Below, piece by piece: positions 1,013 to 19,325 of a stretch of DNA of 35,161 bases (position 1 is its first letter; every line of letters begins with the position of its first letter). This DNA is from a virus. The notes under the pieces were generated by a model that saw nothing but the letters and a program-made list of their open reading frames with translations, did not search any database and had not been told where the DNA came from. Where the stretch lies: IMG/VR virus record IMGVR_UViG_3300023179_000291, positions 1-35,161 of that record; one strand, 5' to 3'. The translations under genes and the position numbers were made by a program.

Positions 1013-1230
1013 ACCTCGAAGGGTTATTCCACAATATTGATAAACGCCTTGCCGTTATAGAGGCTCTTAGTGAAGCCCATGCTATTGAAACTACAAAACA
1101 AACAGAAGAAATTAAAAGAGATTTACAACAAATGAGAGAAGAAGTAAGTCGCCTTAAAGTTCGTATTGCTGGGGTTTCTACTAGTGTGTCTATTATCATT
1201 GGAATCGTTTTTAAATATTGGGGAACTTGA
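1009..1230 (+). CDS. XhlA-like coiled-coil protein with C-terminal membrane anchor
   Basis: The protein has 73 residues. Residues 8-50 form a charged heptad-rich helix, including TKQTEEIKRDLQQMREEVSR, and residues 52-70 form one hydrophobic segment (IAGVSTSVSIIIGIVFKY). This layout is that of XhlA/hemolysin-type phage proteins, which sit at the inner membrane and help holin and endolysin in lysis. The start overlaps the previous stop by ATGA and its own stop overlaps the rhomboid start (TGATG), so the three small genes are translationally coupled. The lysis role is inferred from architecture and position. An unrelated small coiled-coil membrane protein is the alternative. Confidence 0.6.
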   Translation: MNLEGLFHNIDKRLAVIEALSEAHAIETTKQTEEIKRDLQQMREEVSRLKVRIAGVSTSVSIIIGIVFKYWGT

Positions 1231-1826
1231 TGATTACTTTATTTTTATTTCTTATTAGCATACTGTCCCTAGTATTTTTTGATCCAAATACTACAGCATT
1301 TTATTATACCCCACCAGACAGCATAATGTGGTTTATTAGGATAATCAGCCACATGGTTTCACACGGTAATTTACGCCATCTACTGGGTAATTTTTTATTT
1401 GGATTACCGTTTATGCTATATGCCGAATATAGGCTTAAGAGCCACAAAAAATTCCTAAAACTGTTTTTTTATACGGGACTTGCTGCACTTTTTGGGCAAC
1501 GCATGATAGATATATTTTCGGTTGCACCGGCCCAAGCTGTTATTGGTAGTAGTGGAGCTATTTTTGGTATTGTTGCTTTTTCACTTGCGATTGCAAATGA
1601 AAACAGGTGGGTAAGGCTAATGAGTCTTAGCACACTATCTTTTCATATTTATAACCAAGCTTCTATGACTTGGTATGCTATTAAGGGATTTGGATTTGGA
1701 ATTGCTTTTGGAGCCCATCTCTCAGGTATTTTAGCTGGGGTTGCAATTGCCTTTATTCTTCGTCATCATCTTCGTCGTCCGTATCTCCCCAAGGGTCGTC
1801 AACGTCGAAGTCGCTCTCGAAAATAA
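1230..1826 (+). CDS. Rhomboid-family intramembrane serine protease
   Basis: This 198-residue, strongly hydrophobic multipass protein has the full rhomboid signature. HLLGN (His50, Asn54) occupies the oxyanion-hole helix, GSSGAIFG carries the nucleophile Ser108, and FGAHLSGILAG carries the catalytic His163. The dyad is therefore intact and the protein should be able to cleave transmembrane substrates in the host inner membrane. I chose the ATG at 1230 because it overlaps the previous stop as TGATG; a TTG at 1218 is possible but less likely. The last 20 residues are strongly basic and are encoded opposite the acidic C-terminus of the convergent gene at 1753-1980. Rhomboids are unusual in phages. 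The substrate is unknown; lysis, host-protein release or superinfection control are guesses. Confidence 0.88.
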   Translation: MITLFLFLISILSLVFFDPNTTAFYYTPPDSIMWFIRIISHMVSHGNLRHLLGNFLFGLPFMLYAEYRLKSHKKFLKLFFYTGLAALFGQRMIDIFSVAPAQAVIGSSGAIFGIVAFSLAIANENRWVRLMSLSTLSFHIYNQASMTWYAIKGFGFGIAFGAHLSGILAGVAIAFILRHHLRRPYLPKGRQRRSRSRK

Positions 1827-1980: not shown

Positions 1981-2237
1981 TGTTTTCTCCTTGGCAGTTT
2001 TAATTTTGGCCCTATGTGCAGTCGTCTCATTTCAATAATAGCCCCTTTTACAATAGCAAACTGTTCCGCATTCTCATCAATTCTCCGATCGCAAATCCAT
2101 ACCGCTACAGTATATGCAACGTCATCTTCGTCAATAACCACACCAGTAACTTCACATTGAATCGCTCTAGCCTTACTCCCAGACCAATGTGCATGATCCC
2201 AAAATCTAAAGTAGACTACATTAGTGCGTCGCTTCAT
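1977..2237 (-). CDS. Hypothetical protein, 86 aa
   Basis: A compact mixed-charge protein with predicted beta strands around YFRFWDHAHW, AIQCEVTGVVIDEDDVAYTV and VWICDR, ending in a basic tail. It begins inside the end of the zinc protease gene (overlap 2221-2237) with a GGGG-type ribosome site a few bases upstream, and ends with an ATGA overlap to the next gene. No signal peptide or membrane segment is seen. I do not recognise the family; it resembles the many small cytoplasmic accessory proteins of tailed phages. Confidence 0.65.
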   Translation of the reverse strand: MKRRTNVVYFRFWDHAHWSGSKARAIQCEVTGVVIDEDDVAYTVAVWICDRRIDENAEQFAIVKGAIIEMRRLHIGPKLKLPRRKQ

Positions 2238-2694
2238 ATAGCCCCCTAAAAAATTCCTCTTTCATTTGTTGCGAATAAGAAGTTATAGGGTAACTATATT
2301 TGTACATAATATTTCTGGAATCATTACTATGTCCAAGACCCACACAATGTCCTATTTCATGCCAAACTACTGAAACAACTAAATCTCTACCATATTTAAA
2401 AGTTCTATCTGCTATATAAATCTCACAAAAATCTCCACTATATAACGCAACCCCTAAAACATTTTTTCCAAATTTTTCTACTAACTGCTCATTTGTAGCA
2501 TATTTAATTATGATGTTATGGTCATGTTCAGTACCACTTTTTAATTTTTTATTATTGCTTTCTTGTCGTAGTATGCTATATGCTCTTGAGATTTCAGAAT
2601 AGTTATTGCCTTCTAAAGCCATATACACTTTGTATTCGTCTGCTCGTCCACAAGACGACAGAAAAAGAAGACTTATGATCAGTAGATTATTCAT
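2221..2694 (-). CDS. Metzincin-type zinc metalloprotease, lipoprotein
   Basis: The protein of 157 residues starts with a lipoprotein signal, MNNLLIISLLFLSSCG, with lipobox LSSC and Cys15 as the lipid anchor. The zinc motif HEIGHCVGLGHS matches HExxHxxGxxH (His112, Glu113, His116, His122), and NIMYKY (Met130) fits the Met-turn that defines metzincins. An active extracytoplasmic protease is therefore expected, tethered to a host membrane in the periplasm. The start at 2694 overlaps the stop of the exonuclease gene by ATGA and fits the signal peptide; a longer in-frame start would bury the signal. Host-encoded relatives degrade proteins outside the cytoplasm. The target here is unknown; envelope remodelling during lysis or superinfection defence is inference. 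Confidence 0.85.
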   Translation of the reverse strand: MNNLLIISLLFLSSCGRADEYKVYMALEGNNYSEISRAYSILRQESNNKKLKSGTEHDHNIIIKYATNEQLVEKFGKNVLGVALYSGDFCEIYIADRTFKYGRDLVVSVVWHEIGHCVGLGHSNDSRNIMYKYSYPITSYSQQMKEEFFRGLYEATH

Positions 2695-3407
2695 CTGCTT
2701 TTCCTTGTTAAATAATAACCCCCACACGATTTACAATGCCATTGTTGCTGAATAGACATTGAATTAGCTCTAATACCGTCTTTAATTACTTCTGAACTAC
2801 CACATTTAGGACACCCAGTTCGGTCTTGGAGTAGTGCCATATGTGGGTGTTTATCCATCCACGGCAATAACTTATTGTATACCTTTTCTAAAAGTGCAAC
2901 ATCTTGTTTATTGTATTTTTTAAGCAGTGCCCAGCTTTTGGTTTTATCTTGCATACACCCAAGCCACAAATCAAAACCAGTATGTTTTACTTTTTCACCG
3001 ACTTTAAGATACATGCCGAGATCATTTAGTTTATTGCTGTTAAAGTTGAAATATTGCTTGGCCACTTTGTATGTGTCTACGGTTGCGAATTTAGAGGGGG
3101 GTTTAACTCCATGAAATATAAAGCGGGCTCTTGCCTTTTTAATATCAAAGGCATCACCATTGTGAGCAATTACAATGTCGGCTTGATGAAAAAGTTCCCT
3201 AAGTTTTGCTACTAATTTTTTATCGTTGCCCTTTTGTCCTTGAATTGTGACACAATGTATCTCGTTTTCTCCAAGCCACTTATAGGCAACCGAAAGAATA
3301 TACCATTCGGATTTAAAAGCAATAACATCCTGTTCGTATTTACCCCATACATACGCTAAATTTGGAGCCGTTTCTATATCAAACAATAAAACTTTTGGTT
3401 TACTCAT
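2691..3407 (-). CDS. DEDDy 3'-5' exonuclease with C-terminal zinc ribbon
   Basis: The ribonuclease H-like exonuclease fold is clear. LLFDIETAPN at residues 7-16 gives motif I (DxE), IVIAHNGDAFDIKKA gives motif II, and YNKQDVALLEKVY gives motif III with the Tyr and Asp of the DEDDy class. A C-terminal zinc ribbon follows, built from CPKCGS and CKSCGG. The enzyme should trim DNA or RNA 3' ends during phage replication or host DNA turnover. It lies in the replication block, separate from the exonuclease domain carried by the phage polymerase. The zinc ribbon probably adds nucleic-acid binding. Its stop overlaps the metalloprotease start by ATGA. Confidence 0.88.
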   Translation of the reverse strand: MSKPKVLLFDIETAPNLAYVWGKYEQDVIAFKSEWYILSVAYKWLGENEIHCVTIQGQKGNDKKLVAKLRELFHQADIVIAHNGDAFDIKKARARFIFHGVKPPSKFATVDTYKVAKQYFNFNSNKLNDLGMYLKVGEKVKHTGFDLWLGCMQDKTKSWALLKKYNKQDVALLEKVYNKLLPWMDKHPHMALLQDRTGCPKCGSSEVIKDGIRANSMSIQQQWHCKSCGGYYLTRKSR

Positions 3408-8243: not shown

Positions 8244-8272
8244 ATTATACTCCCACTAAATAAAAATTGCAA
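8244..8272 (-). promoter_or_regulatory. Promoter for leaderless nuclease message
   Basis: Reading leftward, TTGCAA (8272-8267), a 17-base spacer and TATAAT (8249-8244) are followed by only seven bases before the ATG at 8236. A normal discriminator would place the transcription start at or within one base of the start codon. The -35 box is also a copy of the TTGCAA word that clusters at 18.0-18.5 kb. Confidence 0.7.
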
Positions 8273-9744: not shown

Positions 9745-9925
9745 AGTACCGTATGCAACAGTAATGACTTTGGTTACTTATTGTACCGAACATCAACAAG
9801 ATGAGCCGTGGTTAATAATTGGATTTATATTAAATGAAAGTAAAGAAACTCCAGAAAAACGTAGGCAGTTTATAAACTATTTATGGGAACGCGGATTTGA
9901 GGATAACCTATGTCTGAAAATTTGA
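9731..9925 (+). CDS. Hypothetical protein, 64 aa
   Basis: A compact protein containing VTYCTEHQQDEPWLIIGFIL and KRRQFINYLWERGF. It starts with GTG inside the previous gene, with GAGGAG seven bases upstream, and overlaps the terminase start by 16 bases. No domain is recognised. The tight overlap on both sides supports it as a coupled member of the rightward operon. Confidence 0.65.
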   Translation: MKYSKVPYATVMTLVTYCTEHQQDEPWLIIGFILNESKETPEKRRQFINYLWERGFEDNLCLKI

Positions 9926-10284
9926 CCGGAAAACAAAAAAGATTTGTTGCTGCATATGCTCAAGGAACGTCCGGCAAAGAGGCGGTTATTCAGGCGGGCT
10001 ATAATGTAACAACAGAAGAAAGTGCAAAAACCATTGCAAGCAGACTTCTTAATAGTGATAAAATTCAGAATGCGTTAGACGCAGCAATCCAAGAGCAATT
10101 TCCGAATGTCCCACAATTAGCTGCGCAAAGGTTAGTTAACATCTTAATTGATGAGCAAAGTCGTCCCGGAGATATTATCAAAGCAATTGAATTATTATCT
10201 AAAGTTTGTGGTTGGCAGGCACCAAGTAAATCTGCTAGTCTCAATGTTACTCTACGAGAAAAATTTAAACTACCGGAGGAATAA
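9910..10284 (+). CDS. terS: Small terminase subunit
   Basis: The N-terminus LTGKQKRFVAAYAQGTSGKE, followed by AVIQAGY, is the hallmark DNA-binding helix-turn-helix region of terminase_2 family small subunits (residues 5-31). An oligomerising helical middle follows. The 124-residue length is normal. It recognises phage DNA and directs the large subunit to cut and package. The large subunit is about 15 kb away at 25338, an unusual separation. The start overlaps the previous gene, and the stop shares a base with the next start (TAATG). Confidence 0.88.
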   Translation: MSENLTGKQKRFVAAYAQGTSGKEAVIQAGYNVTTEESAKTIASRLLNSDKIQNALDAAIQEQFPNVPQLAAQRLVNILIDEQSRPGDIIKAIELLSKVCGWQAPSKSASLNVTLREKFKLPEE

Positions 10285-10682: not shown

Positions 10683-10853
10683 ATGGCTAAGTCAAGAGCA
10701 AAGTGCGGATGTTGGAAAGGCTATAAACGCGTGCCGGGTACTAAACCCTGCAGCGAAGGTTCGTGCATGAAGATGGGAGAACAGCGTGAGGAAAAACAAA
10801 AAGCAAAATCTCCGGCAAGCAAACGACTCGCAATGCGCAGGAAAAAAGTTTGA
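10683..10853 (+). CDS. Small Cys-containing basic protein, 56 aa
   Basis: It begins MAKSRAKCGCWKGYKRVPG and contains PCSEGSC, giving four Cys that may bind zinc. A Lys-rich tail ending KRLAMRRKKV nearly repeats the C-terminus of the preceding protein. The ATG lies one base after the preceding stop. The last 68 bases overlap the MazG-like gene in another frame. No family is known to me. Confidence 0.6.
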   Translation: MAKSRAKCGCWKGYKRVPGTKPCSEGSCMKMGEQREEKQKAKSPASKRLAMRRKKV

Positions 10854-11151
10854 CGGTGGTAAGGTCCGAGTAGACCTGTTACCGACTGAAAGTTTATTTG
10901 AGGTTGCTAAAGTCTTAGGCTTTGGCGCTGACAAATATGGTGAGCACAATTGGCGTAAAGGGATTGAGTGGTCAAGAGTTTACGCTGCGGCCCAACGACA
11001 CATGATGAAATGGAATGCAGGTGAGACACACGATGAGGAGAGTGGCATGAACCACCTTGCCCATGCATGTGTCAACCTGCTTTTCCTGTTGTCTTATGAC
11101 AAGAATCATCCTGATTTGGACGACCGTTACCGTTCGGATAATACGCCATAA
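10786..11151 (+). CDS. MazG-like dATP/dGTP diphosphohydrolase family protein (DUF5664)
   Basis: The 121-residue protein contains KKFDGGKVRVDLLP, LGFGADKYGEHNW, YAAAQRHMMKWNAGE and ESGMNHLAHACVN. These are the conserved blocks of the DUF5664 / dATP-dGTP diphosphohydrolase N-terminal family, a MazG relative that hydrolyses purine dNTPs. It starts with GTG, with GGGAGA five bases upstream, inside the previous gene. The family includes enzymes that deplete dATP or dGTP in phages with altered bases, but many ordinary phages carry it too, and no purZ is seen here. It most likely adjusts the nucleotide pool during replication. Confidence 0.8.
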   Translation: MRKNKKQNLRQANDSQCAGKKFDGGKVRVDLLPTESLFEVAKVLGFGADKYGEHNWRKGIEWSRVYAAAQRHMMKWNAGETHDEESGMNHLAHACVNLLFLLSYDKNHPDLDDRYRSDNTP

Positions 11152-17995: not shown

Positions 17996-18024
17996 ATTAT
18001 ATCACGCGGGTGCAATTGTGAAAA
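17996..18024 (-). promoter_or_regulatory. Promoter of the leftward accessory operon
   Basis: Reading leftward, TTTTCA (18024-18019), a 17-base spacer and TGATATAAT with TATAAT at 18001-17996. The -35 box is weak, but the extended -10 compensates. Transcription would begin near 17989, about 32 bases before the first gene. Confidence 0.6.
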
Positions 18025-18645
18025 ACTGAAGAACTAGTTAACACCATTGCAATCGCATGCATCCCAACTCGTTGCAATCGCTAAGCAATCATTGCAACTG
18101 TCAAACTTATATTGGCAACTGTCTAAGAAGTGTATACATTGGTCCATGGGTTAGGGTACCTTTGCAATTGCAATCGATTGTAGGGCATTTAAACGCAAAG
18201 GAATTCTGCAATGATATTAATGGGTTATGCAATTGTGTTGCAATTGTGTGGGCATGAATATTGCAAGCGCCAGTAAACACCCCAACCCCTAGAGGGTGGA
18301 GCCCATTTGCAATGGTCCCCCCCCACCCCAAACGTCTTATTAAATTTTTAAGTTCGTGTGGATATCAGCGTAAATTTTTTATTTTTTGGGCGGGTCTAAA
18401 ATAACCCCCCTCCACTCTACCAACGTTATTTTGCACCACAGTGCGAAATGGCCCTAGAACCATTGCAAACCATAAGGTGGTAGGATACCCCTAGGGGGTG
18501 TAATAGCAAGCGATTGTAAGGCATTCTAGCACTATTTTTGAGCGTAAAATATCAAAGTTTGCGAGCCCTTGGCGGTTCGCTGGTGGTGGTTGGAGGGTTT
18601 AGGTACTAGATGATCCGCCGGTACGCATTAATTAAACGTAAAAAA
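18025..18645. other. Non-coding region dense in TTGCAA, candidate origin or control region
   Basis: No credible gene fits here: the frames lack ribosome sites and protein-like composition. The palindromic word TTGCAA occurs nine times between 18047 and 18468 (starts at 18047, 18072, 18092, 18162, 18168, 18238, 18261, 18307 and 18463), far above chance. GCAATTG variants add to this. An imperfect 21-base direct repeat lies at 18170-18190 and 18506-18526. C-runs, a CCCCTAGGGG palindrome near 18488 and an AT-rich stretch around 18370 complete it. Repeats plus an AT-rich stretch between divergent transcription units suggest a replication origin or a packaging signal; neither is proven. Confidence 0.6.
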
Positions 18646-18649
18646 ATAC

Positions 18650-18678
18650 TTGACAAACGTAAATTTGTATGTTATAGT
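18650..18678 (+). promoter_or_regulatory. Strong rightward promoter, extended -10
   Basis: TTGACA (18650-18655), a 17-base spacer and TGTTATAGT with TATAGT at 18673-18678. Transcription should begin near 18685, at the foot of the structured leader. Confidence 0.75.
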
Positions 18679-18684
18679 TGTGTT

Positions 18685-18838
18685 AGAATAGCCGAACTTC
18701 GCAGTTCGGATTTCTTACCACTAGCTATTCACCGTAGCTGGTATTGGCGTCACCTGCCCGGCCATGAGGGAAGCATGGCCCTTCTCTACTAAAAGTGGTG
18801 AGCGAGCGTCCAGCGGCTACTGGCGCACCTTTAAAACT
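18685..18838 (+). ncRNA. Candidate structured leader RNA or small RNA
   Basis: About 154 bases separate the promoter from the next ATG, and they fold strongly. GAATAG (18686-18691) pairs with CTATTC (18725-18730) around a hairpin CCGAAC/GTTCGG (18692-18709). GGCCATG pairs with CATGGCC (18760-18780). GCG-CCAG pairs with CTGG-CGC (18806-18826) with one bulge. A GGTG at 18797 can pair with CACC at 18751 or at 18826, so two folds compete. The following gene has no ribosome site. A regulatory leader or an independent RNA are both possible; no known RNA class is recognised. Confidence 0.5.
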
Positions 18839-19236: not shown

Positions 19237-19296
19237 GACGCTAGCATTAGGGATTATAGCATAAATTGTTGATTTTGTCAAGAAAAAAAATATAAC

Positions 19297-19325
19297 TTGA
19301 CATTTTTATTACAATATGTTATATT
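19297..19325 (+). promoter_or_regulatory. Rightward promoter of the fibre and virion genes
   Basis: TTGACA (19297-19302), a 17-base spacer and TGTTATATT with TATATT at 19320-19325. Transcription would begin near 19332, just ahead of AAGGAG and the ATG at 19355. It is the only strong promoter seen before the virion genes. Confidence 0.75.

Follow-up and report, generated by a model that had tools for sequence, protein, structure and literature searches.

Background

Several phages carry multi-site operator arrays, for example lambda OR/OL and the stoperators of mycobacteriophage L5. In these arrays, short and frequently symmetric sites are grouped in a regulatory region that is central or divergent, and in L5 further copies of the site are scattered. 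Iteron-type replication origins, such as lambda ori within gene O and the P1 and P4 origins, also combine clusters of short repeats with neighbouring AT-rich DNA, in small phage or plasmid genomes. At the RNA level, GOLLD and ROOL are structured phage and metagenome RNAs represented in Rfam (PMC2864571, PMC12286853).

The locus described here shares traits with all of these systems. It lies in an IMG/VR virus record of 35,161 bases –the window, that is, the whole stretch of DNA analysed– from an uncultivated tailed water phage. Its TTGCAA array resembles the operator arrays in site type and regulatory position, but it packs nine sites into 422 bases, is found in some relatives only, and comes with no recognised repressor gene. 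Its clustered repeats, AT-rich DNA and small genome recall the iteron origins, whereas its sites are palindromic and irregularly spaced rather than tandem direct repeats in phase, no initiator gene adjoins the array, and the AT-rich part is not conserved. The candidate RNA beside the array is, like GOLLD and ROOL, a conserved folded RNA mainly from uncultivated phages or metagenomes, but it is much smaller (core of about 55-100 nt) and no Rfam model matches it.

Genomic context

Gene order in the window and in the near-complete relatives G001 (39,334) and G002 (39,973) fits a circular map of about 40 kb, and by this comparison the window is short of the map by roughly 5 kb. The ends of G002 share 158 bp at 98% identity, and both are located at the DUF6321 gene.

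The largest non-coding gap of the window (693 nt) sits at the divergence of two gene arms and is mostly filled by the TTGCAA cluster. Left of the gap, leftward genes encode an exonuclease, a family A DNA polymerase, a DnaB-like ATPase, a Cas4-like nuclease, GP88, and DUF932. Right of it are the structural genes: tail fibre-like, terL, portal, and capsid, assigned by position and similarity. Promoter-like sequences are found on both sides of the divergent arms. The stretch is best explained as the central control region between a leftward replication arm and a rightward structural arm of a phage of about 40 kb.

No close cultured phage was found, with terL identity of at most 35%, and the host search retrieved no terL relative in GTDB genomes. 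Pattern searches with the conserved block and the array returned only the relatives already known and otherwise probable chance matches. For this uncultivated phage group without a close cultured relative, the array represents a defined and testable control region.

The TTGCAA cluster

The array (18047-18468, no strand) contains TTGCAA at positions 18047, 18072, 18092, 18162, 18168, 18238, 18261, 18307, and 18463, with irregular spacings of 25, 20, 70, 6, 70, 23, 46, and 156. The sequence-only reading had reported nine copies in 422 bases; the count was right and the local excess is far above chance. A first-order model of the gap predicts 0.64 copies in its 693 nt (maximum of 5 in 5000 runs), and the rate elsewhere in the window predicts 1.03 (Poisson p 1.4e-6). 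That reading had also proposed counting the word along the genome, and its density in the window is indeed uneven: 13 per kb in the gap, versus 1.4 in coding and 1.9 in other non-coding DNA. Outside the neighbourhood of the cluster, the maximum is three copies per 500-base stretch.

The word is also mildly enriched across the window, with 60 copies versus 23 in dinucleotide shuffles, and within genes, with 45 versus 23.6 in codon-shuffled genes. Part of the excess in the gap may follow this general richness. A system of scattered sites was considered from the same enrichment and set aside as weak once trinucleotide content was modelled, since the second-order model leaves only 51 copies versus 37 outside the gap.

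The same word had been proposed to serve as a -35 box at 8267. This is plausible: the minus strand there reads TTGCAATTTTTATTTAGTGGGAGTATAAT, that is, TTGCAA, 17 bases, and TATAAT. In phage 7-11, TTGCAA is an ordinary -35 element (PMC4331800). Nothing on TTGCAA operators was found among the literature titles and abstracts listed.

Conservation in relatives

The gap aligns at 78% with the nearest relative, G004 (also L010, contig 3300035670_001072). Seven of the nine TTGCAA sites are intact there, compared to 40% of all 6-mers (binomial p 0.024; circular-shift p 0.010), in a modest test based on a single close relative. In G006, eight copies lie within 620 nt at different positions, and a 38-nt site-bearing piece (18168-18205) is inverted in it (L032 167-204, 89%). 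Such inversion and rearrangement are to be expected if the array is orientation-independent and its sites turn over.

The picture differs in more distant relatives: G002 has three copies in the gap and G003 none in 1000 bases, despite the same genome plan in both. Thus, the array is not essential to the group, nor a universal component of its replication or packaging, and it belongs to a subclade.

These comparisons also bear on whether the array has any function. A word favoured by the phage could build up by chance or mutation in DNA free of coding constraint, and both the window-wide enrichment and the absence of the array in some relatives fit such a build-up. However, other non-coding DNA of the window does not reach a comparable density, the sites are more conserved than their surroundings, and the divergent relative G006 keeps its eight copies, so we regard a functionless cluster as rather unlikely.

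Other elements of the gap

A 21-base direct repeat had been described in this region. The repeat is present, but as two inexact 27-nt copies on the plus strand (18163-18189 and 18499-18525) that are 85% identical. The inverted repeat ACCCCTAGAGGGTG occurs twice (18285-18298 and 18487-18500, no strand), and L010, L032, L031, L013, and L113 retain an ACCCC/GGGGT-like inverted repeat there with changed letters. This inverted repeat with a GGGC...CCCCC block is widely common to the relatives, and in three of them a G-rich tract comes next. The tract is of quadruplex type (GGGAGGGGGGATGGAGGGGGGTGGG in its L113 form, L113:984-1008) and lies in the same gap of L031, L013, and L113; the window is without it.

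The G/C-rich block at 18280-18520 represents real homology among six relatives, and inspection by eye gave no convincing single structure for it. DNA folding of 18262-18640 was not unusual (z -1.06). At the left edge of the gap, the motif TTTTCACAATTG is also found in L032, L031, and G001.

Possible roles as replication origin or packaging site

The earlier reading interpreted the region as a protein-binding array for replication initiation or packaging. The dense palindromic sites, their partial conservation and their location support the part of this reading that concerns a protein-binding array in divergent non-coding DNA, whereas neither of the two proposed roles found support.

In a replication origin, the array would bind an initiator, the AT-rich stretch would melt, and forks would leave the point of divergence. 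The gap has the size and place for it, and its palindromes –nine partly conserved words that could act as repeated initiator-binding sites–, its AT-rich stretch and, in relatives, the quadruplex-type tract are suitable components. A DnaA-like box, TTTTTCACA, is present at 18017-18025, and its motif TTTTCACA occupies the corresponding position in G001, L031, and L032. However, DnaA boxes occur at chance level (6 versus 5.95), no initiator gene was recognised, and relatives built on the same plan are without the array. The AT-rich stretch exists as described (18341-18384, no strand), but its second half is not AT-rich in the nearest relative, L010, so an unwinding element is not preserved between the two.

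Cumulative GC skew, which had been proposed as a check, does reach its minimum at 18 kb. This minimum is explained by gene orientation: the skew follows gene direction and not the arms, and it turns positive at 9-11 kb, where genes inside the left arm run rightward. With no skew switch independent of gene orientation, we rejected GC skew as evidence for an origin. Altogether, a replication origin at this site seems doubtful.

As for packaging, the array could be part of a packaging or genome-end site, and several contigs of relatives end in or beside the gap: G001 with both ends, G002 with both ends at DUF6321, and G005, G006, and L013 with their starts. These ends are suggestive only; they differ between contigs and may come from breaks in the assembly of a variable region. 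Moreover, the small terminase subunit gene (terS, 9910-10284) is 8 kb away from the array, and the array is missing in G003. A pac or cos function is thus very improbable.

A probable multi-site operator beside the leftward promoter

We favour, with slightly better than even confidence, the reading of the cluster as an architectural array or multi-site operator that lies upstream of the left arm's leftward promoter. Promoters were called as matches to the sigma-70 consensus. The sigma-70-like leftward promoter (17996-18024, minus strand) reads TTTTCA-17-TATAAT with TG before the -10 box and overlaps TTTTCACAATTG; its hexamers at 18024 lack clear conservation among the other relatives. Symmetric sites cluster upstream of it, and they are conserved or turned over in G004 and G006, with few or none in G002 and G003. 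Operators are favoured over iterons because the spacing is irregular and the sites are palindromic.

In the mechanism that we propose from the sequence, the TTGCAA copies would be palindromic sites, roughly RTTGCAAYYG, for a predicted DNA-binding protein. Measured from the leftward promoter, the array starts about 20 bases upstream and spans about 450 bases. The bound protein would most likely set the output of this promoter, as a repressor or as an activator, and may also organise the DNA for replication. A DNA-binding regulator was not recognised among the window proteins scanned, a set drawn from all but about 5 kb of the genome and including part of its small reading frames.

Predicted convergent promoters and the DUF6321 gene

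Beside the array, the rightward sigma-70-like promoter P_R (18650-18678, plus strand) reads TTGACA-17-TATAGT with TG before the -10 box, and G001-G006 carry its equivalent. The hairpin CCGAACTTCGCAGTTCGG (18692-18709, plus strand) is located at the expected 5' end of its transcript. P_R would produce a structured RNA of about 100-150 nt. Convergent with it, P_L (19253-19281, minus strand; TTGACA-17-TATAAT) matches the consensus at 12/12 positions and is antisense to both the DUF6321 gene and the RNA, with an equivalent in each of G001-G006, L021, and L228. Transcription from P_L would be directed leftward across the RNA, toward the array and the left arm. The tail-fibre-like gene has its own predicted promoter at 19297-19325 (plus strand, TTGACA-17-TATATT).

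Between P_R and P_L, the DUF6321 gene (PF19846; 18839-19156, plus strand, with the start inferred from relatives) encodes a small basic protein. The gene is absent beside the RNA in G003, L021, and L228, and in G006 P_L is located before it. Thus, the constant unit consists of P_R, the RNA, and P_L, and DUF6321 seems to be a passenger. Genes for DUF6321 abound in viral contigs (at least 576 relatives), usually without the RNA at 18741-18827.

A candidate structured RNA

The candidate structured RNA (18741-18827, plus strand) is located in the 5' leader of DUF6321, downstream of P_R, and its pattern of hairpins and pseudoknots is strongly conserved, with strong covariation. All copies have two hairpins and one pseudoknot, and a long form adds a second pseudoknot. 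In the window, the loop of the hairpin GGC-GUCACCU-GCC pairs with GGUGA (pseudoknot 1), the loop of GGCCAUG-AGGGAAG-CAUGGCC pairs with CUUCUC (pseudoknot 2), and a third hairpin reads CCAG-CGGCUA-CUGG, where the loop in the family is NGGCUA.

Compensatory changes are found in the proposed helices. The stem of the first hairpin varies among GGC/GCC, CGC/GCG, and GGU/ACC. Pseudoknot 1 pairs UCACC with GGUGA, and in L010 CCACC with GGUGG. In the long form, pseudoknot 2 pairs GAGAAG with CUUCUC; the window has GGGAAG with one G-U, and L228 pairs GAAGAUC with GAUCUUC. In the core alignment, 94.9% of the 195 cells pair, and in 7 of 15 pairs both positions change with pairing kept; in the long-form alignment, these values are 96.9% and 8 of 13. 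Shuffles and slid controls show less covariation. The aligned sequences were themselves the source of the structure, the shuffles leave relatedness in place, and the two alignments were spliced by hand, with the variable middle part removed and single bases dropped in L007, L021, L032, and L228.

A pattern scan retrieved the same RNA core in contigs with no other similarity noticed. In L121 and L228, the RNA precedes a tail-fibre-like gene, and it has like positions in L118, L119, L122, and L126; L227 departs from this, with different neighbouring genes. With a covariance model, there was one copy per phage, detected as two partial matches where the RNA is interrupted by a long insert. The model also recovered L021, which was outside it and shows both pseudoknots by eye.

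Rfam gave no plausible match for 18741-18827, even at E up to 5. A ribozyme was considered and set aside: Rfam includes the hammerhead, HDV-like, and twister families, and none of them matched. No convincing match to the motif was found in cultured phages and bacterial genomes, and nothing on a phage RNA of this shape was found among the literature titles and abstracts listed.

The layout between P_R and P_L suggests that this is probably a separate small RNA with an antisense counterpart and not simply a leader. Tentatively, and at a little under even confidence, we propose a new class of small structured pseudoknot RNA, located near tail-fibre genes in several unrelated uncultivated phages; in this phage group, between strong convergent promoters and with its antisense transcript, it could switch between the two arms on either side of the TTGCAA control region. 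The RNA is the stronger result of this locus. The array alone is of moderate interest, and an RNA absent from Rfam beside the array raises the value of the locus. If real, the RNA would be a new conserved element of phages that seem unrelated in the rest of their genes. It is usually near host-recognition (tail-fibre) genes, where phages exchange modules, and the question would then be which role a conserved folded RNA plays at such a site.

Other genes of the window

Elsewhere in the window, the gene at 10786-11151 (plus strand) carries a dATP/dGTP diphosphohydrolase domain (PF18909) that phages with modified adenine are known to encode. This gene led us to search for PurZ, which was not found in the window or in G001-G004, G008, and G009. 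At 1218-1826 (plus strand), a rhomboid-like membrane protein was recognised by eye from a GSSGAIFG motif, with homologues in the same part of the map in G001, G002, G003, G008, and G009. Finally, a small protein at 2221-2727 (minus strand) presents a lipoprotein-like start and, by eye, the zinc-metallopeptidase motif HEIGHCVGLGH, which is unusual for a phage; G008 and G009 carry relatives of it at 37-41%.
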